From IMG/VR virus record IMGVR_UViG_3300038441_000600, positions 1 through 44,045 of that record: a stretch of DNA of 44,045 bases; one strand, given 5' to 3'. Both the position numbers and the translations under genes were made by a program. The notes beneath the pieces were generated by a model. The model ran no database searches. It saw only the letters and a program-made list of their open reading frames with translations, and was not told the origin of the DNA. This DNA is from a virus. Shown piece after piece: positions 28,380 to 41,190 of this stretch (the first letter of the stretch is position 1; each line of letters opens with the position of its first letter).

Positions 28380-30929
28380 ATGGCATTCGAATCCATCGCT
28401 GGCGGCTTTAAGGTCAGCGCCCAAGACCAGCAGCTGGTCAACGCGCAGCGCGCTATCACCAAGGTCATTAACGACCGGTTCATCCAGGTCGGCGCGGTCT
28501 TCCTCAAGACCAGCAGCAAGAACCCCCACGAGGATGACTGGTACAAGCGCGGGCATCGCGACACCGATCTTCAAGCGTGGATTGACAATCCCGATCTGAA
28601 CTACCACAACGCAGGGTTCAACCTGCAGATGGGCTGGCTCGATATCGACATCGACGCAGAGGACCCCGAGTACAACGAATGCATCCTCGCGGCGCTTAAT
28701 CACCTCAAGATTGACACGCGGTTCAAGTTCGGCCGCCTTTCGGTGGGTGTGGCAAGCCACGTCATGGTTCAGCTGGGGGAGGACGAGGCCACCAACTTCG
28801 ACAAGCTCACCCGCTTCGAGCCCAAGGAATTCCGGATCGAAGGCAAGCGCTACCACGTTCAGCTGCGCGGCTTCTCCACCAATACGAGCGCCGCCAACGT
28901 AGCTAAGTCGGCCAAGCAGACCGTGATGCCGGGTTCCATCTACACCCACAAGACCGAAAGGGACAGGTACGACATCTCTGTCTGGTACGGGCCAGCAGGC
29001 GTTGCGACTGAGGTCAAGAACATCACCTCGACGACGCCCCGGCGCGTCAACTTCAACGAGATCGTCCGCGCCATCTGCTTCGGCACATTCCTGTACTGCC
29101 TCAAGGAAGAGTGGGTCGAGGGCAGCCGCCAGATGACGGCGCAGAAGGTGACCGGCTGGCTCGCGCGCGTCATGAAGGACAGCGCCGCGATGAATAACCA
29201 CGAGGTGGTGTCGTCCGACGTGTTTTGCCCCGTCGACGACGAGGGCATCGCCGAATCGCTGCTGTATTTCATCTGCGACTACATGCACGACGACGAAAAG
29301 CACATGCGGGTGCGCGCTTTCCATGACGCCGTGGCCAAGCTGGAGCGCAACCCCGACGCCAAGGTTCCCGGCTGGCCCGCAATGGAGCAGCTTATCGGCG
29401 GCGCTAAGACGCTGGCGTTGCGTACTGTGTTCATGCCGGGCTCAGACGTGTCGCAGTTGACCAAGATGGCTGAAAGGTACGTGTATGACGAAACTGACAA
29501 CCAGTACATTGACCGCACTCGCTTCTTCACTACTGGCGGGTTCGTCCATGCCGGTGAAGAACTCGAACGGAGACATCGTGGCGATGTCGTCCGAATTGGC
29601 GGGAAACCTAAGCAGGCCTTTTCGGTGTACGAGTCCAGCGACATGCGAAAGCGAGTCGGGTTCAGAGACCTTTATCCAGACCTTAATCCGGGAGGCATTT
29701 ACCGCATCTCAGGACTGGGGGAAGTCCTCTCTGATGATGACGACGGGGACAATACCGCTCTATCGGTATTTAATACGTGGCGAGGATGGCCTGTGGGTGT
29801 TCCGGACAAAGTTGATGAGCGACTACTTTCTGACCTCGTTGGACGTCTCGATACCGTATTGGGATATCTCACCCAGGATAAGGTCGAGCAAATAGACTGG
29901 ATCAAGCGCTGGATGGCGTGGACGTTCCAGCGCCCCGGCGACAAGCAGCAGATCGCTTGGGTGGTAGTGGGCGAGCAGGGCATCGGCAAATCGTGGATTG
30001 GCAACATCTTTATGCGGGCTCTCATGGGCACGCTCTGGGGATCGGCGTCACCGAAAGTGATGGAGGGCGACTTCGTCATTGGGCCGTTCCTCAACAAGAT
30101 GTTCGTGTTCATCGACGAGGCCAAGTTCCACTCCGAGGTGGGCGTCGACGAAATCAAGAAGCTGATCCGTGGCGTGGACGTTCCCGGAGCGGAGAAGTTC
30201 CAGGATGCGCGCAACTATAGACTGTTTGCCCGACTAATGTTTGCGTCCAACCGCATGAACATGAATATCGGTCAAGCCAACGTGCGCGACCGTGCTTTGT
30301 TCTATACCCGCGCGTATGACCGCGACTACAAGCGTATGACCGAGGCCGATTTTCGCACTTGGGCGGAGACGCTCAAGCCATGGTTTCAGGAGTACACCGA
30401 TCTGCTCCAGCAACGAACGGTGCGTGAACACTACATGCACTATTTCCTCAACGTGGTAAAGACCGACAAGTTCGAGGTCGAGAGCATCAAGCATTCCAGC
30501 AGCGCCGACGCGCAGATCGTTATCGGCAACATGTCGTGGTCGCGCCGCATCGCCAAGTACATCATCGAAGATGGGCGCATCCACGAGGACCTCGACATCT
30601 CGTACCCATTCACGGTGCCCGAGCTCAACCGGCGTGTGGTCGACGTGTGCAGGGAGCTAGGCATGTCGAATGTGCAGGGCAGCCACATCTTGGCGGAGTT
30701 CGAGAGCGCTGGTGTCCTTGAGAAGATCGTAGTCGCCGGTCAGAAGAAGCTGCGCTTCACCCACAAGATCGGCTCCCTCACCCAGTTTTTCGGCGTGGCG
30801 ATCGGTGTCGACCTCGAACCCCGCTACGAGTTCACCGAAAAGGACATGGGGCCCAACGACTGCGACGGTTCCACCCGCCCCTCATGGCGTGGGTCCAAGC
30901 TGGGCGTAGTGGCTCAGAGTAGGGTGTAG
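28380..30929 (+). CDS. Primase-helicase (AEP-like N-terminus, SF3-type helicase)
   Basis: This is the largest protein in the window (849 aa). An N-terminal region contains GFNLQMGWLDIDIDAEDPEY, whose DID pattern resembles the metal site of archaeo-eukaryotic-type primases, with SVGVASHVMV following. The C-terminal half is a superfamily 3-like helicase (DUF5906 type): Walker A VVGEQGIGKSWI near residue 531, Walker B KMFVFIDEAKFH near 577, and LMFASNRMNM as the sensor. It would prime and unwind DNA for the phage polymerase. Expression is probably controlled by the leader RNA just upstream. Confidence 0.85.
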   Translation: MAFESIAGGFKVSAQDQQLVNAQRAITKVINDRFIQVGAVFLKTSSKNPHEDDWYKRGHRDTDLQAWIDNPDLNYHNAGFNLQMGWLDIDIDAEDPEYNECILAALNHLKIDTRFKFGRLSVGVASHVMVQLGEDEATNFDKLTRFEPKEFRIEGKRYHVQLRGFSTNTSAANVAKSAKQTVMPGSIYTHKTERDRYDISVWYGPAGVATEVKNITSTTPRRVNFNEIVRAICFGTFLYCLKEEWVEGSRQMTAQKVTGWLARVMKDSAAMNNHEVVSSDVFCPVDDEGIAESLLYFICDYMHDDEKHMRVRAFHDAVAKLERNPDAKVPGWPAMEQLIGGAKTLALRTVFMPGSDVSQLTKMAERYVYDETDNQYIDRTRFFTTGGFVHAGEELERRHRGDVVRIGGKPKQAFSVYESSDMRKRVGFRDLYPDLNPGGIYRISGLGEVLSDDDDGDNTALSVFNTWRGWPVGVPDKVDERLLSDLVGRLDTVLGYLTQDKVEQIDWIKRWMAWTFQRPGDKQQIAWVVVGEQGIGKSWIGNIFMRALMGTLWGSASPKVMEGDFVIGPFLNKMFVFIDEAKFHSEVGVDEIKKLIRGVDVPGAEKFQDARNYRLFARLMFASNRMNMNIGQANVRDRALFYTRAYDRDYKRMTEADFRTWAETLKPWFQEYTDLLQQRTVREHYMHYFLNVVKTDKFEVESIKHSSSADAQIVIGNMSWSRRIAKYIIEDGRIHEDLDISYPFTVPELNRRVVDVCRELGMSNVQGSHILAEFESAGVLEKIVVAGQKKLRFTHKIGSLTQFFGVAIGVDLEPRYEFTEKDMGPNDCDGSTRPSWRGSKLGVVAQSRV

Positions 30930-31575: not shown

Positions 31576-31795
31576 CTATCCCGGTGCATCGTGCAAAGTC
31601 CTAGCCGACTGAACAGGGGTTCAAGTCCCCGACCGGGGCTCTACTTTTCCAAGGGGTGTCTAGGTTCCGCTGTCACGGGGCCGAAAAGTCGGGGGTTGAC
31701 AGACCCTAAAGCTTCGTCTCATAAACGGGCTGAAACGATCTGGCCCCCTTTGAAAAGTAGAGTAGCCGCCTAAGTGGTCACGCACTCTGGCGCTC
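31576..31795 (+). ncRNA. Highly structured non-coding region of unknown class
   Basis: About 220 bases without a gene. A tRNA T-arm-like hairpin GGGG-TTCAAGT-CCCC lies at 31616-31630. An 18-bp helix with one mismatch joins 31639-31656 (CTCTACTTTTCCAAGGGG) to 31745-31762. Inside it are further pairings, including CTGTC with GACAG, CCGA-aaag-TCGG and GGGGCC with GGCCCC. No complete tRNA or tmRNA can be built, since an anticodon arm and tag frame are missing, and no known ribozyme core is recognised. Confidence 0.45.
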
Positions 31796-31841
31796 GAACG
31801 CCCCGAAGGTTTGGCACGCACCTTCGGGGCGTTCTCGTATT
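31796..31841 (+). terminator. Strong terminator
   Basis: GAACGCCCCGAAGGT (31796-31810) pairs perfectly with ACCTTCGGGGCGTTC (31820-31834), loop 9, followed by TCGTATTT. It separates the structured region from the next promoter. Confidence 0.75.
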
Positions 31842-31852
31842 TCCCGGACCCC

Positions 31853-31881
31853 TTGACTGGCCCCCTGCGCCGTGGTATACT
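31853..31881 (+). promoter_or_regulatory. Rightward promoter of the replication accessory genes
   Basis: TTGACT (31853-31858), 17-base spacer ending CGTGG, TATACT (31876-31881). A small hairpin GGTCCG-agag-CGGCCC follows in the leader. Confidence 0.78.
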
Positions 31882-31923
31882 CTAACTACGGTCCGAGAGC
31901 GGCCCGGTACAACGGAGATAACG

Positions 31924-32415
31924 GTGAAAGATTCCACGCTAGAACTAATGGGCAAGATTTGTCGCGGGATGGTCGGACTGGCCGAGATGATCCGCGACGA
32001 CACGGCAGAGGTCACCAAGACCCGTGACCATATCGCCGTCATCAAGCACTACAATCACATACGCATCGCTAATGAAACCATCAAGGAAGCCCGAAAGGCG
32101 CTGGACCAGATGGAAGAGGAACTGTCCCGCGAGACGGTACCCGAGGTGATGCGTGAAAACAGCGTCAAGACCACCACGGTCGAAGGCGTCGGCAGGGTCA
32201 CCATTTCGGCGCGGACGTCCTGTTCCATGATCGACAAAGAGCTCGGCATGGAGTGGCTCACTGCCAACGGCCACGGGGGCATGATTCAGCCCACCGTCAA
32301 CGCCTCTACGCTCGGCGCTTTCGCCAAGTCGCAGATGGAAGAAGGTCGCGAGCTCCCGGTGGACAGGTTCAAGACGAGCCTGATGACCTACACGAGCATC
32401 ACCAAGGTCAAGTAG
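31924..32415 (+). CDS. Conserved phage protein, 163 aa, probable DNA metabolism
   Basis: GTG 31924 behind CGGAGATAAC is the best start; the next ATG would remove 8 residues. Residues 1-85 are helical and likely coiled coil (KALDQMEEELSRETVPEVM). Residues 86-163 form a beta domain (VEGVGRVTISARTSCSMIDK, then MEWLTANGHGGMI and PTVNASTLGAFAKSQME). Proteins of this pattern occur next to replication and recombination genes in podoviruses; the role is unknown. Confidence 0.6.
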   Translation: MKDSTLELMGKICRGMVGLAEMIRDDTAEVTKTRDHIAVIKHYNHIRIANETIKEARKALDQMEEELSRETVPEVMRENSVKTTTVEGVGRVTISARTSCSMIDKELGMEWLTANGHGGMIQPTVNASTLGAFAKSQMEEGRELPVDRFKTSLMTYTSITKVK

Positions 32416-32655
32416 ATGGAACACGATCAGTCCAGCAATTTAAGGGCTGTCGCGCCGCTGCGCAGGTTTCGCGTGCGAGTGTTCGAGAATGACTGCCACT
32501 ACGACGTGTTCGTAACAGCGCACCTCGTGTTCAATAACAAGGATCGCGGCGAGGGCTTAGTTTTTCGCCGCTATTATGAGGACAGCGTCCGCACCGAAAA
32601 GGTCGCTGAATTTGAGCCCGGAACCTTCACCTTCTATGAGGAAGTCGACCAATGA
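32416..32655 (+). CDS. Unknown protein, 79 aa
   Basis: The start is directly after the previous stop and the end overlaps the next gene by 4 bases. The product is beta-rich with FRVRVFENDCHYDVFVTAHL and the C-terminal FEPGTFTFYEEVDQ. Not recognised. Confidence 0.6.
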   Translation: MEHDQSSNLRAVAPLRRFRVRVFENDCHYDVFVTAHLVFNNKDRGEGLVFRRYYEDSVRTEKVAEFEPGTFTFYEEVDQ

Positions 32656-33503
32656 CTGAACTTGTCAAGACCAACACCCAGTTGCCCGCTCACTTGCAGG
32701 GCGTCCAGAAATCCGCCAAGCTCGGCAACGTCGACAGCAGCGACCTGATTCTTCCCCGCGTCAAGCTTCTGCAGGCCGTATCGCCGGAGCTTGACGCTTT
32801 CAACAACGCCAAGAAGGGCGAGTTCTGGCACACTATCGCTGGCGAATCGCTCGGCACGGTTCTGCGCGGCATCCCGATTGTGGTCCGCAAGTCTTATGTC
32901 CTGTGGTCGCCGCGCGGCGATGATCGCGGCGTTCTGGCCCGCGCCAACGACGGGCTCAACTGGGACGCCCCGGCAGGCACCGAGTTCACGGTCAAGCCGA
33001 AAAAGAGCCCCCACAACGTCACCTACAAGCTCGGCGACACCGTTCATGACCGCGTCGACGGCCTGCCCGCCCTTTCGGAGTTTGGCTCGTCCATTCCGGG
33101 CGACACCAATTCGCCCCCGGCAGCGGCGCTCACCTACCAAATCCTCTGGTACTTTCCCGACCTTCCAGGCATGTCGCCCGCGATCATGCTCAACACCCGC
33201 TCGTCGGTGAAGCCCGGCAAGGACCTTATCTCCAAGATCGACATGCGGCCCGTCGACCATTACGCCGGGGCGTACCAGATCAGCATCGCCAAGGAAGTCG
33301 GCGATGATGGCGACTTCTACAACTACCGCTACGCGATGGACGGCTACGCGACCGAGGACGAGTTCACCTTCGCTAAGCAGCTGTTCGAGCGGTTCGGCGG
33401 CGCTGACTGGAAAGCCAACGACGAAGACACCAGCGACGACGACGCCAAGGCAGGCGGCGGCGGCAAGTCGTCGGGCGGCGCAAAAGACAGCAAGAAGTTC
33501 TAG
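32652..33503 (+). CDS. Possible ssDNA-binding protein, 283 aa
   Basis: The 283-residue product has an N-terminal region with LPRVKLLQAVSPELDAFNNA and GTVLRGIPIVVRKSYVLWSP, a central beta region ending ISIAKEVGDDGDFYNYRYAM, and a C-terminal tail that is first acidic (NDEDTSDDDA) and then Gly/Ser/Lys-rich. A beta core plus acidic tail and a place between primase-helicase and polymerase suggest a phage ssDNA-binding protein, but no diagnostic OB-fold motif is visible. Confidence 0.5.
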   Translation: MTELVKTNTQLPAHLQGVQKSAKLGNVDSSDLILPRVKLLQAVSPELDAFNNAKKGEFWHTIAGESLGTVLRGIPIVVRKSYVLWSPRGDDRGVLARANDGLNWDAPAGTEFTVKPKKSPHNVTYKLGDTVHDRVDGLPALSEFGSSIPGDTNSPPAAALTYQILWYFPDLPGMSPAIMLNTRSSVKPGKDLISKIDMRPVDHYAGAYQISIAKEVGDDGDFYNYRYAMDGYATEDEFTFAKQLFERFGGADWKANDEDTSDDDAKAGGGGKSSGGAKDSKKF

Positions 33504-33950: not shown

Positions 33951-34132
33951 GCGGTGCCAATGTCCTCAAAAGCGTGAAGCTAGCCAACGCCAAGTTGCGC
34001 AGGCTCCGCGATCAGTTTCGCACATACAGGGGCCTCGAAAACAACTACAGTAAGAAAGCTTCAAGGAAGCTCCAGGAGATAGCGATGACCCGCCATCTGA
34101 TGAAAGAGAATGGGATACCAGAAGATGAGTGA
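33938..34132 (+). CDS. Small basic protein, 64 aa
   Basis: ATG 33938 lies inside the end of the preceding gene, and the end overlaps the polymerase start. The product is strongly basic and helical (VKLANAKLRRLRDQFRTYRG). It may bind nucleic acid or the polymerase, but nothing shows this directly. Confidence 0.55.
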   Translation: MAEVGGANVLKSVKLANAKLRRLRDQFRTYRGLENNYSKKASRKLQEIAMTRHLMKENGIPEDE

Positions 34133-35951
34133 CTATCTCGACGCAATTGACCCCGAACTAGCGCTGATGATCGTGCGGGAAAGTAAGGTGATCGCCTATG
34201 ACACCGAAACTTCCGGCCTTGTCCACGGCGTTGCCTTCATCTGCGGGTATGTCATCACCGATCACTCGCACTCCCTTTACATTCCGGTCCGCCACGAGGG
34301 CGGCGGCAACATTCCGTTCGTCGAGGAATTCGAGCAGGAGCTCAACGCGGCGTTTCAAGAGCGCGGGCGTCTCGGCCTTCGCACGGTCGGTCACAACCTT
34401 GGCTTCGATCTGCGCATGTCGGCGTGGCACAACGTCTGGCCCCAAAGCCCCCTCGAAGACACGTTGATCAATGAAGGTCTGATCGACGACCGGACCATCG
34501 GTTACGGCCTCGACGACTGTTGCCGCAGACACCAAGTCACCGCCAAGAAGGGCGACGAGCTCTACCGCGCTATCGCTGAGAGGTTCGGCGGAATCCCCGA
34601 TCGCAAACAGATGGCTAACTTCTGGCGGATGCCGGGGGACCAATTCGAAGTGGTGGACTACGCCACGGGTGACGGCGTGTCGACGTTGGAGTTGTGGTCG
34701 TCACAGAACGTGCTGCTCGACCAAGAACAGCTGAGGGTTCCGTGGCAGCTGGAGTGCGACCTCCTGCCCTACCTCGCCCGCATGCACAGACGCGGAATCC
34801 GAATTGACGCCGACTACGCCGAAAGGGTGGAGGACGACCTCAAGGATCAGATCAAGGAAGCCAGTTCCGTATTTTCGGCGGGTTTCAACGTCCGGTCCCC
34901 CAAGGAAGTCGAGGCGCTGTATCGGGCCAACGGCTACGGCGACGACTCCTTCGATCGCACGGATACCGGCAAGGTTTCCTTCACCGAAAGCTGGCTCGAA
35001 ACTAATGAGATCGGCAGCAGCATCCTCGGCGTTCGCCGTCTGGAAAAGGCGCGCGACAGCTTTATCGCCCCGCTCGCCGTCACCAACAACATCGCTGGGC
35101 GGGTTCACGCCACGCTCAATCAGTCCAAATCCGACGAATACGGCGTTGCTGGTTCCCGCCTCTCCTGCTCGGTCCCCAATCTCCAGGCGTTCCCCAAGCG
35201 CAACAAGCAGGTCGGCAAGGTCGTGCGCCGCCTAGTCATTGCTGATGACGGTATGTTGCTGGAGGAAGGCGATGCGATGCAGCAGGAGCCGCGCTTCTTT
35301 GCCCATTACAGTGAAGACGAGGCGCTGCTTCACGGCTACAACACCGACCCGTCCTTCTCGGTCCACCATCGCGCCAACGACATGATGTTCGACGGGCAGG
35401 AGTACGATAAGGCCAAGCGCATGGCCATGGGCATCCTTTCGATGATGTACCCCAGGGCGCTGGCTGGCCATCTGCGCATCAGCGTCAAGGAAGCCTCGGC
35501 GCTGCGGCAAAAGTTCCTCTACGAGGCGTTCCCCGCGATCGGCCAGTTCCAAAAGGACGTGGTCAGTGTATTCGAGAGCCGGGGTTATGTTCGCTCGATC
35601 CTAGGCCGAAAAGCGAGGCTGGAGACGAGCAAGTGGGCGTACAAGGGCGTGTCGCGCGTGATCCAGAACAGCGGCGGCGACCATATCAAGACGTGCATTC
35701 TGCGCGCCTGCCAGTACGAGGACGCCTACCCCGACTTGGTTCAAATCCTACTGTCCATTCACGACTCCGTTATGTGGCAGCGCGACCCGGCCCACTCCCC
35801 CAAGGAGTTGGTGCGCGTAATGGAGAACGTGCCGCACGAGCCGCAGTTCAACCTCCGCCTGCCCATTCCTTTCGAGGTGGGCTCCGCTCGCAACTGGTCG
35901 GACGCGTCGTACGGCCCCAAGATCAAGGATAAGATGGGATGGCAAATCTAG
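34110..35951 (+). CDS. dpoZ: Family A DNA polymerase with 3'-5' exonuclease (DpoZ-like)
   Basis: The 613-residue product has an intact exonuclease: AYDTETSGL (Exo I, about residues 29-37), TVGHNLGFDLRM (Exo II) and DYATGDGVSTL (Exo III). The polymerase motifs follow: A (EEGDAMQQEPRFFAHYSED), B (EYDKAKRMAMGILSMMYP) and C (LSIHDSVMWQ). Motif A is altered from the usual DYSQIELR. ATG 34125, which overlaps the previous stop, is an alternative start five codons in. Linkage to PurZ, MazZ and DatZ suggests the DpoZ group, which copies 2-aminoadenine DNA; the proof-reading domain may help exclude A. The subgroup call is inferred from context. Confidence 0.85.
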   Translation: MGYQKMSDYLDAIDPELALMIVRESKVIAYDTETSGLVHGVAFICGYVITDHSHSLYIPVRHEGGGNIPFVEEFEQELNAAFQERGRLGLRTVGHNLGFDLRMSAWHNVWPQSPLEDTLINEGLIDDRTIGYGLDDCCRRHQVTAKKGDELYRAIAERFGGIPDRKQMANFWRMPGDQFEVVDYATGDGVSTLELWSSQNVLLDQEQLRVPWQLECDLLPYLARMHRRGIRIDADYAERVEDDLKDQIKEASSVFSAGFNVRSPKEVEALYRANGYGDDSFDRTDTGKVSFTESWLETNEIGSSILGVRRLEKARDSFIAPLAVTNNIAGRVHATLNQSKSDEYGVAGSRLSCSVPNLQAFPKRNKQVGKVVRRLVIADDGMLLEEGDAMQQEPRFFAHYSEDEALLHGYNTDPSFSVHHRANDMMFDGQEYDKAKRMAMGILSMMYPRALAGHLRISVKEASALRQKFLYEAFPAIGQFQKDVVSVFESRGYVRSILGRKARLETSKWAYKGVSRVIQNSGGDHIKTCILRACQYEDAYPDLVQILLSIHDSVMWQRDPAHSPKELVRVMENVPHEPQFNLRLPIPFEVGSARNWSDASYGPKIKDKMGWQI

Positions 35952-36298
35952 GCAACTCGATTCGTCCGAAAGGTAAGTCGTTCCACAGCATCATGCGGGC
36001 TGTTATGGCGGCGATATCCGAGCCAGACACAAGCGTGGTCCACATCAGCGACTCCCTTCACACAGCGCGGCATCACATGCAATACGCGGCCCACATCGTT
36101 CAGCCGCTTGGCGAGTTCGCCAAAGTGCGCCTGACAGACATGTGGATTGTGTTCGACAACGGGTCGCGAGTCAACTTTGTGTCGGGGCGTGACACCTACT
36201 GGGTAAAGGGCAACCGGCACCGCAGATTCTTCATCGACCATTACGCGTTCGAAGAGGGGTTGACACCGGTTGAGCTCCGTGGTAAAGTGGAGGTGTAG
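35939..36298 (+). CDS. Unknown protein, 119 aa
   Basis: Overlaps the polymerase end by 13 bases. The product has an N-terminal helix (SFHSIMRAVMAAISEPDTS), a middle reading FAKVRLTDMWIVFDNGSRVN and a basic segment GNRHRRFFIDHYAF. Its last codons contain a promoter-like sequence. Function unknown. Confidence 0.6.
   Translation: MANLGNSIRPKGKSFHSIMRAVMAAISEPDTSVVHISDSLHTARHHMQYAAHIVQPLGEFAKVRLTDMWIVFDNGSRVNFVSGRDTYWVKGNRHRRFFIDHYAFEEGLTPVELRGKVEV
36260..36288 (+). promoter_or_regulatory. Putative promoter ahead of the Z-nucleotide genes
   Basis: TTGACA (36260-36265), 17-base spacer ending CGTGG, TAAAGT (36283-36288). It lies inside the end of a gene. The predicted start near 36295 leaves no ribosome-binding site for the gene at 36302, so it would serve VRR-NUC, PurZ, MazZ and DatZ downstream. 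Confidence 0.6.
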
Positions 36299-36301
36299 GG
36301 G

Positions 36302-36532
36302 ATGGTAGTCCGGCCTAATGACCCAACCGTGGCGATTGAGGGGAAAATTGAGCACAAAGCACCGAAATCGTACCTTATGGAACTTACGCTCGGTGGCCGC
36401 TATTTCGTGCCGTTTTCTCAGATACTCGGCGGCATGGACGGTATCGGTGACCCGGACGGCCACGGCAATTTCCAAATCGAAGTCTCGCAGTGGTGGTGGG
36501 ACAGGAAAACGGAGGTAGAGGATACGCGATGA
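36302..36532 (+). CDS. Unknown protein, 76 aa
   Basis: GGAGG lies 7 bases before ATG 36302. The beta-rich product (VAIEGKIEHKAPKSYLMELT) ends with a Trp cluster (SQWWWDRKTE). It overlaps the nuclease gene as ATGA. Not recognised. Confidence 0.55.
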   Translation: MVVRPNDPTVAIEGKIEHKAPKSYLMELTLGGRYFVPFSQILGGMDGIGDPDGHGNFQIEVSQWWWDRKTEVEDTR

Positions 36533-36912
36533 AGCCGGAAGCGAAAGCTAAGAACGCGATTGTCGACGCCTTCCAGGAGGGTGGGCATTATGCGCGCCGC
36601 TTCGAGGATCAGTTCTATGTCGGTTTCCCCGATATGATACTGATACCTCGCGGCTATCCGGCTTTCTTCACCGAGGCTAAGATTGTCGACGGGCTGCAAT
36701 TCAAGCCCCGACTTCGGCAATGGGTTGAGCTTGACCGGCTGTCCCTTTCGCCGAAGCACGTGATTCCCACAATGTTGGGGGTAAAGGCGGGTGTCCACTA
36801 CCTGCACAAGTTCGCCAAAATCGTGCACATTGTCGACTGCGTAAAGCAGCGGGATGGCGAACACATAGTGGATTTGTTCAAGCGATACTACCACGAAAGG
36901 ATGGAATTATGA
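36529..36912 (+). CDS. VRR-NUC family nuclease, 127 aa
   Basis: This small PD-(D/E)XK enzyme has an N-terminal helix (KAKNAIVDAFQEGGHYARRF), then the active-site motif GFPDMILI followed by FFTEAK, and a C-terminal basic helix. Phage VRR-NUC proteins are structure-specific nucleases often found next to SNF2-like helicases and polymerases, as here. Overlaps on both sides (ATGA) tie it to the Z-gene unit. Confidence 0.85.
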   Translation: MKPEAKAKNAIVDAFQEGGHYARRFEDQFYVGFPDMILIPRGYPAFFTEAKIVDGLQFKPRLRQWVELDRLSLSPKHVIPTMLGVKAGVHYLHKFAKIVHIVDCVKQRDGEHIVDLFKRYYHERMEL

Positions 36913-37307
36913 GTGACAACAAACGCGTTGCCGGTGACCTCATCACCCAAGCGGCCAAGACAGTCCTGAAAGACCGCCCCGGCGTCCACGGGTCGGTTGA
37001 AAACAGCTTCCAGATGATCGCCGACCTCTGGAACGTGCGTATCGCCCACAAGCGCGCCATTCACGGCAGCGATGCTCTGCTCAACCCGGCTGACGTGGCG
37101 CAGTTCATGGCCGACCTCAAGTCGTGCCGCACCTCTTACGGCGACCCGATGAACGCTGACAACTTCGTCGACGGCATCGGCTACCTCGCCTTGGCGGGCA
37201 TGCTCACCTTGCCCGACCCAGACGCTTCCAAATCGGTGGGGGACGAGCTCGAAAAAGAGTTCCCGCCAATAAGCGGCAAGACCGTTCACACCAACATCAA
37301 CGCGTAA
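36909..37307 (+). CDS. DUF6378-like phage protein, 132 aa
   Basis: The product has a helical core with WNVRIAHKRAIHGSDALLNP, SCRTSYGDPMNADNFVDGIG and YLALAG, the pattern of small phage proteins annotated DUF6378. It begins in an overlap with the nuclease gene. An E/K-rich C-terminus follows. The function of the family is not known to me; conserved linkage with nucleotide metabolism genes is suggestive. Confidence 0.65.
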   Translation: MSDNKRVAGDLITQAAKTVLKDRPGVHGSVENSFQMIADLWNVRIAHKRAIHGSDALLNPADVAQFMADLKSCRTSYGDPMNADNFVDGIGYLALAGMLTLPDPDASKSVGDELEKEFPPISGKTVHTNINA

Positions 37308-37318
37308 GGACACGACAA

Positions 37319-38383
37319 ATGCACAGCGTCCCCTTGTTCGAAGCGACCGGAGCTCACGTTCTGGTCGATGGTCAATACGGCTCCACGGGCAAGGGGGTGC
37401 TGGCCGCTTGGCTGGCACTCAGGGCCATGGAGCGGGGTATCGTTTTCGACACTGTCGTCAGCAATGCCGGTCCGAACTCTGGTCACACGTTTTACCACGG
37501 CAGCGAAAAGCACGTCCTGAAACAGCTGCCCACGTTCGCCGTAGCGTCCTACCTTCTCCACAACGAGGACTTCGCTCCGGACGTCGTCCTTTCGGCGGGC
37601 GCGATCATCGACCCTATTCAGCTGGGCGTCGAGGCCGAAAAGTACCCCGGCATCACGATCCATGTTCACCCCAATGCGGCGGTCATCACCGCCGAGGACC
37701 GGGCGGCGGAGCATTCCGGCACCATAGCCGCCGTGGCTGGTACCCGAAGTGGCACTGGCGCGGCGCTAGCCCGGAAGGTGCAGCGGGACCCCAAGGCGGT
37801 GGTAGCGGGTGCGAGGCTGCCGGTCCAGATGACCTCGCAGCCCAACATCAAGGTCGCCGCCGTTGAGCACGACGCCTACAACGATCGGGTGTTCGTCGAG
37901 GTGAGCCAGGGTTTTTCGTTGGGCATTAACCAGCCGTTCTATCCGAAGGTCACGAGCAGGGAGTGCACCGTTGCACAAGCCATCGCTGATGCTGGTATTC
38001 CGCCGAGGCACGTCACCAAGACTTACCTATCGCTTCGTACTTTTCCGATACGCGTCGGCAACGTGGATGGGCACGACAGCGGGGACTGGTACCCCGATCA
38101 GGTTGAAACTGACTGGGTCGCGCTCGGTGTCGAACCAGAACTCACCACCGTCACCCAGAGGGTGAGGCGTGTCGCAACATGGTCCGAGGAACAATTCCTC
38201 GATGCCTGCCGTGCCAATGACCCGGACATTGTGTTCCTGAACTTCCTCAACTATATTGATGACGTGGAAGTTCGCATGCGGTTCATCGACGGCGTTGCCG
38301 ATCTTCGGGACAACCTGCCCCGCTGGTACGATATCTACGGCAGCACCGGCCCCAAGTCGGAGGACGTAAGCTACTATGGTTAA
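37319..38383 (+). CDS. purZ: PurZ: phage adenylosuccinate synthetase homologue for 2-aminoadenine synthesis
   Basis: The 354-residue product is a shortened PurA-type enzyme. The nucleotide-binding loop reads DGQYGSTGKG (residues 17-26), where host PurA has GDEGKGK. The catalytic Asp of PurA is replaced by Ser22, the hallmark of PurZ, which accepts dGMP in place of IMP. VSNAGPNSGHTFYHG and VLKQLP correspond to the NAGHT region, and GTRSGTGAALARKVQRD to the GTTxRGIGP loop. It would join dGMP and aspartate to make the precursor of dZMP. RBS AAGGACACGACAA. The gene overlaps the MazG-like gene by 8 bases. Confidence 0.93.
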   Translation: MHSVPLFEATGAHVLVDGQYGSTGKGVLAAWLALRAMERGIVFDTVVSNAGPNSGHTFYHGSEKHVLKQLPTFAVASYLLHNEDFAPDVVLSAGAIIDPIQLGVEAEKYPGITIHVHPNAAVITAEDRAAEHSGTIAAVAGTRSGTGAALARKVQRDPKAVVAGARLPVQMTSQPNIKVAAVEHDAYNDRVFVEVSQGFSLGINQPFYPKVTSRECTVAQAIADAGIPPRHVTKTYLSLRTFPIRVGNVDGHDSGDWYPDQVETDWVALGVEPELTTVTQRVRRVATWSEEQFLDACRANDPDIVFLNFLNYIDDVEVRMRFIDGVADLRDNLPRWYDIYGSTGPKSEDVSYYG

Positions 38384-38840
38384 CCACACTTACGACGATG
38401 ACTACGAGGAAGAAATAGTGCGCAACGAAAAGGAACACTCTACGCACCCGGTCCGCCCCTTGGTGCCCCGCCTATCCAGAGAAGACATGGAACAAATCGC
38501 TAGCAGGGTAGAGAAGGCGGCGGGCGTAGATTTCCACGTGAATCTTCAATCTCCGCCCAATCAGCCCCTGACGATCGAAATCCCAAGCGAGGTCCTCCAG
38601 TATCGCGAAGATATCCGCCGCTTCGTCGACGCGATGCTCTACAAATTGAAGGTCCACCACCGAAAAGGCAGGTGGGAGGGTAAGACCATCGACGAATATC
38701 TGCCGCTATTGGAGGGGGAGGTGGCCGAGCTACGGGAAGCCTGTGGCGGCGGCAACTTGATAGAGATACTCATGGAGGCCGCTGACACCGCCAACATGGC
38801 TATGATCATATCAGCAATAGCGGTGGAGCGAGGGAAATGA
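38376..38840 (+). CDS. mazZ: MazZ: MazG-like dGTP pyrophosphohydrolase
   Basis: The 154-residue product has a MazG-type helical domain from about residue 82: MLYKLKVHHRKGRWEGKTID, then the metal-binding pattern EVAE with 15 residues to EAAD. In Z-phages this enzyme turns dGTP (and dATP) into the monophosphate, supplying dGMP to PurZ. An N-terminal extension of about 80 residues (acidic, then SREDMEQIASRVEKAAG) is not part of the MazG fold and looks like a separate small domain. Confidence 0.82.
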   Translation: MVNHTYDDDYEEEIVRNEKEHSTHPVRPLVPRLSREDMEQIASRVEKAAGVDFHVNLQSPPNQPLTIEIPSEVLQYREDIRRFVDAMLYKLKVHHRKGRWEGKTIDEYLPLLEGEVAELREACGGGNLIEILMEAADTANMAMIISAIAVERGK

Positions 38841-39046
38841 GTACGCCTTTCATGGGTACTGTAGGTTTCGACACCGGAATCAAGGACAAGCACGGGAACC
38901 CCATCCACATCGGGGACGAGCTACGTTTCGACGAAAGGGAGTGGGGCGGACCCTGCATATTCACGGTGGGGTTCGTCGACGGAGAGTTGACGGGCTGCGG
39001 CTCGATCGGTGACTGGTCGGAATGGTGCGAGGTGGTGCAGAAATGA
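38837..39046 (+). CDS. Unknown protein, 69 aa
   Basis: ATGA overlap with MazZ. The beta-rich product (GIKDKHGNPIHIGDELRFDE, then WGGPCIFTVGFVDG and [10 protein letters not shown]) resembles small YopX-like or SH3-like phage proteins. It overlaps the next gene by 4 bases. Function unknown. Confidence 0.6.
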   Translation: MSTPFMGTVGFDTGIKDKHGNPIHIGDELRFDEREWGGPCIFTVGFVDGELTGCGSIGDWSEWCEVVQK

Positions 39047-39249
39047 CCAGTCGCCCTACACACGACGCGGTGCAGATCGTCAAGGCCGTCCTTTGGGAAG
39101 AAGCCAAAGGCAAGCTCCGAGCCCTCGTTGCCGCCGAGGGGTCAAGATACAGCACTCCTGAAAAGGGCGAGCCCTTCAAGCACGAGGTAATCTCGGAGGA
39201 AATCGAGGCGTTCATCAAGGCTTTTGAGGGCGAGGAGTACAATCTGTGA
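39043..39249 (+). CDS. Unknown protein, 68 aa
   Basis: ATGA overlap at 39043 and another with DatZ at its end. The product is helical and charged ([20 protein letters not shown]), ending [15 protein letters not shown]. Its tight linkage between MazZ and DatZ suggests co-regulation, but no function is seen. Confidence 0.6.
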
Positions 39250-39800
39250 CCAGTCGCAACACAATTTTCAACGAGTTGGATCACCGCCTTTCGGTCGTTA
39301 AGCGTTGGGGCATCCTCCACACAATCCAGACGCAATCGGTGGCGGAGCATTGCTTCAACGTTCAGCGCATCGCCATGCGGATTGCGCGAGAATGGTTCGG
39401 GATACAGAACCCCTCCGTTATGCTCCAGATTGCCGAAAGGGCGCACCACCACGACGATCTGGAATCGGTGATGGGCGACCCGCCCACGATGATCAAGCCG
39501 TACCTCGACGAGGAAGGCATGGCGAGGGATCACGCCGATCTTGTGCCGATACGCACGGTCAATAACGAAGTGAAGCGAATCGTCAAGCTGGCCGACATGC
39601 TTGAGGCGTTCCACTTCATCTGCATCGAGCGGTTGCTCGGCAACAGGTTTGTCGAGAACCACTACAAGAGCTACTGGAACGAAATCGGTGACTACGTGAT
39701 CACGGCGTTCCCGGATTGTAACATATGGGGCGACGTGTCAGGTGTCATGGAGAACATGGCGAACGACATCTCCGAACGCCACAGCAAGCGGGGCCGCTGA
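39246..39800 (+). CDS. datZ: DatZ: HD-domain dATP triphosphohydrolase
   Basis: The 184-residue product is a YfbR-like HD phosphohydrolase. Its metal residues lie in [17 protein letters not shown] (His), [15 protein letters not shown] (His-Asp) and [12 protein letters not shown] (last Asp). In Z-genome phages DatZ strips the triphosphate from dATP, which removes A from the pool and makes substitution by Z almost complete. It sits in the same overlapping gene string as PurZ and MazZ. Confidence 0.88.
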
Positions 39801-39801
39801 C

Positions 39802-41190
39802 ATGCAGCTTTTCGATGTGCAGAAGGAAGGCTTGCGGCGCAGCGGCGGCGCTCGTGGCTTCGGGTATTTCATGGAGCAGGGCCTCGGTAAGACGTTGACC
39901 GCCGAGGCCGACTACCTGGAACGCGTGGCAGAAGGTAACGCCGACCGTTCCATCGTGGTGTGCCCCAATTCGTTCAAGGGCGGGTGGGTGTCGGACGCCG
40001 AAAAGCACGGGCTGGAAATCGACCAGATGGTTTACGACAGCGGCAGCAACGCCGCGTCGTATTGGGCGAACCGTCCGTCCAATCGCCCCAAGCAACTGAT
40101 CATCAACTACGAGGCCATCCGCTCCGAAGCGACGATGAACTTCCTTAAGGGGTTCATGCTCAACCGCCGCGTTTTCGGCATATTTGACGAGAGCATCAAG
40201 CTCAAGACATTCAACAGCAGCCAGACCAAGGCCGCCATCGAAATCAGCAAGGATTTTTCCTACTCCCGCATCCTTTCGGGGAAGCCGGTTTCGCAGGGTC
40301 CGCATGACTTGTGGGCGCAGATGCGCGTCATCGGTCAGCTGAATGGTCGCGAGTACTATCCGTTCAAGACTATGTTCTGCAAGATGGGCGGCTTCAAGAT
40401 GAAGCAGGTGATGGGGGTCCAGAACGAGGATTTTCTCCGCCCGATGATCGAACCGCATGTGTTCCGGGCCACTAAGCTGGACTGGACCGACCTACCGCCC
40501 AAGCTGTACACCAGCCGGGAATACAAGATGTCGGGTGACATGCTCACTATGTACAAGCAGATGCATGAGGAATTCGTTGTTTGGCTCAACGAAGATGAGA
40601 ATGTATCGGTAGACGCCGCCATCACGAAGTACATCAAGCTGGCGCAGATTCAGTGCGGCTGGATTTACGACAACGAAGGCAAAGTCCGCCAGCTGGTCGA
40701 CGACGAAAAGAACCCGCGCCTAAACCTGCTGTCTGACACGATTGAAGAAGAGATCGTGGGCAAGACAATCGTCGTGTATCACCACAAGCCGGTGTACGAC
40801 CAATTGATGCGGCGCTTCAAGCATCTGAACCCGGCGTGGATCAAAGGGCAGATGAAGTCGGAAGAGATTGAGGCCCAAAAGCGCCGCTTCAATGAGGACG
40901 ACGACTGCCGCATCATTTTCTTGCAGGATGACGCCTCGAAGTACGGCCACACGCTTTTGGGCAACCAGTCCAAGACGGAGACGGCTTGCTTCAACACGTT
41001 GTTTTATGAGAACAGTTACTCGCTCGACACCCGGAGCCAGATCGAGGACCGAAACCACCGGCATGGGCAGACGATGGATTCGGTCCTCTACACCGATCTA
41101 ATCGGAAGTCCGCTAGATCGGGATTGTGTTGCGGCTCTGGTGCGCAAGGAAAGTGTTTTCCAAGCTATTTTCGGCCACCTTAGGCGCTAA
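39802..41190 (+). CDS. SNF2/superfamily 2 helicase
   Basis: The start ATG 39802 is just after the DatZ stop (462 aa). Motif I is MEQGLGKTLTA (about residues 24-34), motif Ia VVCPNSFKGGW, motif II FGIFDESIKLK, motif III ILSGKPVSQGPHDLWAQMR, and the last motif QIEDRNHRHGQT. These mark a compact SNF2-like DNA translocase of the phage type. With VRR-NUC it could act in replication restart or recombination on the modified genome. The stop overlaps, on the other strand, the end of a tiny membrane protein frame. Confidence 0.88.
   Translation: MQLFDVQKEGLRRSGGARGFGYFMEQGLGKTLTAEADYLERVAEGNADRSIVVCPNSFKGGWVSDAEKHGLEIDQMVYDSGSNAASYWANRPSNRPKQLIINYEAIRSEATMNFLKGFMLNRRVFGIFDESIKLKTFNSSQTKAAIEISKDFSYSRILSGKPVSQGPHDLWAQMRVIGQLNGREYYPFKTMFCKMGGFKMKQVMGVQNEDFLRPMIEPHVFRATKLDWTDLPPKLYTSREYKMSGDMLTMYKQMHEEFVVWLNEDENVSVDAAITKYIKLAQIQCGWIYDNEGKVRQLVDDEKNPRLNLLSDTIEEEIVGKTIVVYHHKPVYDQLMRRFKHLNPAWIKGQMKSEEIEAQKRRFNEDDDCRIIFLQDDASKYGHTLLGNQSKTETACFNTLFYENSYSLDTRSQIEDRNHRHGQTMDSVLYTDLIGSPLDRDCVAALVRKESVFQAIFGHLRR

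Follow-up and report, generated by a model that had tools for sequence, protein, structure and literature searches.

This locus raises two questions: whether the phage that carries it replaces adenine (A) by 2-aminoadenine (Z) in its DNA, and which kind of polymerase would build such a genome. The window, that is the whole stretch of DNA analyzed, is the IMG/VR virus record IMGVR_UViG_3300038441_000600 (44,045 bases). The opposite strand of the window carries portal, major head, scaffold, DNA ejection and endolysin genes, comparable with those of the Ochrobactrum podovirus vB_OspP_OH (hereafter OH). No terminal repeats were found in the window; one frame stays open across its joined ends, so the genome appears near-complete, which is less than proof of completeness. 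A scan of bacterial genome contigs for a host revealed no relative.

On the plus strand, a replication module contains a PrimPol-like primase/helicase homologous to OH gp22 (28380..30929), a Gam/Pam3-gp33-like protein (31774..32415) and a Pam3-gp34-like protein (32652..33503). The same strand then carries, in one operon, a family A DNA polymerase (PolA), PurZ, a MazZ-2-type hydrolase and DatZ, together with a putative VRR-type nuclease, a DUF6378 protein and a SNF2 helicase. The first-pass annotation had taken these genes for the full Z cassette of a podovirus-like phage. All the genes that it named are present as plus-strand open frames at the positions it gave, and family searches recover PolA, the DUF6378 protein, a PurA/PurZ-type synthetase, an HD hydrolase and the SNF2 helicase. 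Homology, residue checks and synteny also support the cassette as a whole; the supposed novelty of the gene order needed correction, and the DpoZ label of the polymerase turned out not to be straightforward. From gene identity, catalytic residues and synteny we infer a pathway in which MazZ would convert dGTP to dGMP, PurZ would make dSMP from dGMP, aspartate and ATP or dATP, host enzymes would complete dZTP, DatZ would destroy dATP, and the family A polymerase would then build Z-DNA, so that dA is predicted to be replaced by dZ in the virion. With a probability of about 0.8, we consider that the window phage replaces A by Z and that its polymerase represents a PolA lineage of its own, adapted through the nascent-base-pair pocket.

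PurZ (37319..38383, plus strand, 354 aa) matched the PHROG family of 2-aminooxy adenylosuccinate synthetases (2e-55). PurZ was also its best NCBIfam model, with 222 bits vs. 121 for the nearest PurA model; the curated cut-off of 300 bits, which was not reached, is a database threshold and not a biological feature. The nearest PDB entries were PurZ of phiVC8 (4e-48) and of S-2L. As first noticed, the P-loop reads GSTGKG instead of GDEGKGK, and the catalytic Asp of PurA is thus replaced by Ser22. The protein matches the S-2L or phiVC8 substrate set at Ser22, Asn53, Thr142, Gln197, Arg245, Val246, TTVT 276-279, Arg283, Asn308, Phe309, Asn311, Gly344 and Pro345, and its dATP/ATP pocket residues match PurZ of the same two phages. 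Ala50, Gly130, Ser131, Tyr203, Cys204 and Arg244 of S-2L PurZ differ both in the window and in OH. The phylogeny, which could have placed this protein with canonical PurA, joined it to known PurZ (98/94), outside PurA and outside PurZ0, the latter forming a group of its own (99/97). Within this assemblage, the window PurZ and its IMG/VR relatives constitute a sister clade to all characterized PurZ.

The MazG-like gene (38376..38840, plus strand) lies directly after PurZ. Its match in the family search was weak (phrog_9860, 1e-5), and it aligned with phiVC8-type MazZ-2 proteins (30-34% to those of phiVC8 and ZP6), with the four acidic metal ligands kept (Glu115, Glu118, Glu134 and Asp137) and an N-terminal extension of about 60 aa. 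Judged by this alignment and these residues, it is of the MazZ-2 type. DatZ (39246..39800, plus strand), an HD-domain protein, matched the PHROG family of dATP triphosphohydrolases (2e-19). Thirteen of the 14 S-2L DatZ residues checked are identical, among them the HD metal residues, Arg19, Trp20, Lys81, Lys116 and Ile22, the residue that excludes Z and G; the sole difference is Pro79, which is replaced by Met82. Most of the residues by which PurZ and DatZ are recognized in the enzymes of solved structure are present here, so the locus is best explained by a Z genome.

The remaining genes of the operon, all on the plus strand, are less telling. An ORF of 119 aa (35939..36298) was found only in the close copies of the window, being absent from OH and from the other loci of the clade; it weakly resembles large terminase subunits in their N-terminal region. 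It is followed by a small ORF of 76 aa (36302..36532), which is conserved in OH and in much of the clade. The putative VRR-NUC/PD-(D/E)XK nuclease (36529..36912), whose ATG overlaps the previous stop, was called on a weak endonuclease match and the motif PDM...FFTEAK. The DUF6378 protein (36909..37307; family search 6e-18) directly precedes PurZ in most of the clade. PHROG labels it a phosphofructokinase, a name that seems mistaken. Its structural model is all-helical and of low confidence (pLDDT 66), with no fold match at E<=0.001, and was too weak for the protein to be retained as a second MazG-like hydrolase. A search for DUF5664 gave no match anywhere, the controls being silent too. Two small ORFs (38837..39046 and 39022..39249) are open frames of unassigned function. 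The SNF2-type helicase (39802..41190; family search 6e-13) lies in a frame that opens at 39742; the ATG at 39802 was chosen, as it fits the start of the OH gene.

Neither the cassette nor its gene order is new, contrary to what had been supposed of the order. When 50,697 phage records were searched at the protein level, OH (Wolominvirus) came closest for PurZ (59% identity) as well as for the polymerase (62%), and it presents the same succession of polymerase, small ORF, nuclease, DUF6378, PurZ, MazZ, small ORF, DatZ and SNF2. It was published in 2020, its genes being read as nucleotide salvage and similarity being noted to phiVC8, ZP6, PMBT28 and SH-Ab 15497 (PMC7139368), and its MazZ-2 figures among the Z-phage sequences of Czernecki et al. 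(2021; PMC8342488). Between MazZ and DatZ, the window has small ORFs that set it apart from OH. As the same order recurs in OH and in dozens of IMG/VR contigs, the cassette is not a chance assembly. The phiVC8-like Z phages (DpoZ-2, PurZ, MazZ-2, DatZ) have the same four functions. The cyanophage S-2L (PurZ, MazZ-1, DatZ, PrimPol) has similar PurZ and DatZ residues and, like the window, a primase-polymerase-like gene, whereas its MazZ is of type 1 and PolA is absent. The Wayne/Supakev-like phages resemble the window in having a PurZ-family gene and an adjoining PolA; they differ by PurZ0, by DutZ/DmtZ in place of DatZ/MazZ, and by a DpoZ-1 with Phe.

What would be new is the polymerase, which appears to be neither a phiVC8-like nor a Wayne-like DpoZ. 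This enzyme of 613 aa (34110..35951, plus strand), with a 3'-5' exonuclease, matched Pfam DNA_pol_A (3e-40), and its best NCBIfam model was DpoZ, with 273 bits vs. 173 for PolA, below the curated DpoZ cut-off of 500 bits. The predicted structure (pLDDT 91.5) found its best fold match in DpoZ 7pbk (TM 0.80). The alignment columns were validated by reproducing the phiVC8 DpoZ numbering (D26, E28, D85, R161, M165, R440, L455, F459, G548, S583). Exonuclease, catalytic and metal-site residues are kept, the exonuclease residues and insertion 1 being shared with phiVC8-like enzymes; insertions 2 and 3 of DpoZ-2 are absent. At the DpoZ-2 signature positions Leu455, Phe459 and Gly548, the window reads Met440, Ser444 and Ser515. 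Its O-helix is AKRMAMGILS, in which Ser444 corresponds to Tyr766 of the Escherichia coli enzyme and Tyr432 to Arg754, while Ser515 corresponds to Asn845. The position of the O-helix Tyr, called universally conserved in family A (PMC12220841), is Phe in both known DpoZ clades (PMC8599892), and two is also the number of DpoZ groups in the open-licence papers covered (PMC12884076). With insertions 2 and 3 and the DpoZ Phe missing, a preference of this polymerase for Z is inferred rather than established.

The replacement of the dNTP-binding Arg754 by Tyr432 (window positions 35403-35405) is shared by two contigs identical to the window (L010 and L011). Arg754 is kept in OH and in every other correctly aligned member of this PolA family, and the window's own copy of the polymerase may be impaired or compensated.

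Scans of the viral contigs of IMG/VR added dozens of loci with the same module; the records come from metagenomes, and fragments may be among them. Among 80 distinct PurZ-linked polymerases of the clade, position 766 is Thr in 78 and Ser in two, the window and OH. It is Tyr in 15 distinct PurZ-less relatives, and position 845 is mostly Ser in the clade. The R-x3-K-x3-F-x3-Y spacing of the O-helix is ungapped throughout the clade, so the assignment of Thr or Ser does not depend on the choice of alignment. A large group of polymerases in which the supposedly universal Tyr aligns with Thr or Ser is the surprise of this cassette. The change to Thr or Ser arose once, and the link with PurZ thus mostly reflects shared ancestry. 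Thr766 without PurZ was seen at six loci (three distinct sequences), which were discounted as counter-examples because their contigs end before the PurZ position. The locus L087 (IMGVR_UViG_3300033146_005439) weighs against our explanation: this 111-kb contig encodes a divergent PurZ (GSTGKG) next to a PolA with the canonical O-helix Tyr. The latter is apparently interrupted by an intein-like stretch.

In the maximum likelihood tree, the window clade and the locus L141 formed one group (100/100), apart from the phiVC8-like DpoZ (100/100) and the Supakev enzyme. L141 (IMGVR_UViG_3300038492_000504) has a sister polymerase with Tyr, an adjoining YfbR-like HD protein, a nuclease and SNF2, with no PurZ in 59.9 kb. 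It may represent the module before Z was adopted; no further relatives of it were found. We read the clade polymerase as a third Z-adapted PolA lineage, in which Tyr766 to Thr or Ser, Phe762 to Met or Leu, and Asn845 to Ser would have provided the adaptation, without phiVC8-type insertions and Phe. What the sequences show directly is the pattern of residues and its association with PurZ; the changes are predicted to cause the preference for Z. The polymerase may also be an offshoot of the phiVC8-like DpoZ lineage, descended from one Z-adapted ancestor, L141 having later lost PurZ and returned to Tyr. This scenario we take seriously and would still bet against. It draws on the moderate grouping of DpoZ-2 with L141 and the window clade (94/84), on insertion 1 and on several genes common to the replication modules; the missing insertions 2 and 3 and Phe are harder to accommodate. 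A tree in which DpoZ-2 and the window clade were forced together without L141 was rejected by the AU test in two samplings (p 0.0003 and p 0.0008). The same result would be expected if the L141 line had lost PurZ, so it does not prove three separate origins.

The distribution of DatZ is the main indirect argument for Z selection by the clade polymerase. Among 79 distinct intervals between PurZ and SNF2, 35 contain MazZ and DatZ, 39 MazZ only, four DatZ only and one neither. Also, nine PurZ-bearing records of 42-45 kb, all with MazZ, contain no DatZ, YfbR-like or dUTPase gene anywhere. The 39 cassettes and nine long records without DatZ fit a polymerase that selects Z itself, and they are the mirror image of S-2L, which has DatZ and no PolA. 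A contrast is offered by the locus L130, nested inside the PurZ-bearing clade (100/99). Its operon consists of polymerase, the conserved small ORF, unrelated small genes, nuclease, DUF6378 and SNF2; the PurZ-MazZ-DatZ block is missing, and no match to any of the three was found in its 44,213 bases. Given the nested position, loss of the block is the simplest reading. In the L130 polymerase, positions 766 and 845 are both occupied by Asn. No second case of this kind was found, and L130 remains a single contrast.

The most far-reaching account, held tentatively and at somewhat less than even odds, is that of a third lineage with Thr or Ser, whose Z selection would make DatZ dispensable, and of which at least one descendant went back to A when the trio was lost and both of these residues changed. 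On sequence grounds, the clade polymerase is predicted to prefer dZTP to dATP. Reportedly, the structural study of the phiVC8 polymerase found no single determinant of Z vs. A selection. We think it rather unlikely that the genome contains Z through the nucleotide pool alone, PurZ, MazZ and DatZ enforcing it as in S-2L around an unselective polymerase, with Thr or Ser serving relaxed or lesion-tolerant synthesis on Z templates. The window does keep DatZ, the S-2L PrimPol is unselective and depends on DatZ (PMC8065100), and the Y766S change makes Klenow polymerase a mutator whose site is more open and less faithful (PMC3121766); against this stand the many DatZ-less cassettes and records, and L130, in which the trio was lost and the same residues changed. 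The phage's own primase-polymerase-like gene could carry part of the synthesis, which counts against the third-lineage account. It is very improbable that the genes serve ordinary nucleotide salvage and that A is retained in the phage DNA, which was the view of the OH authors in naming an adenylosuccinate synthase, a pyrophosphatase and a nucleotidase (PMC7139368), given the replacement of the catalytic Asp of PurA by Ser, the place of the protein in the PurZ clade and the dATP-specific pocket kept in DatZ.

The third-lineage clade would constitute a natural set of enzymes that handle the nascent base pair in another way. With its tens of homologues and a nested PurZ-less relative, it makes the discrimination between Z and A by polymerases testable through swaps of one or two residues. 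Our data also suggest that PurZ phages in general can dispense with DatZ, and that environmental viromes commonly contain Z phages like this one, of which only one has been isolated.
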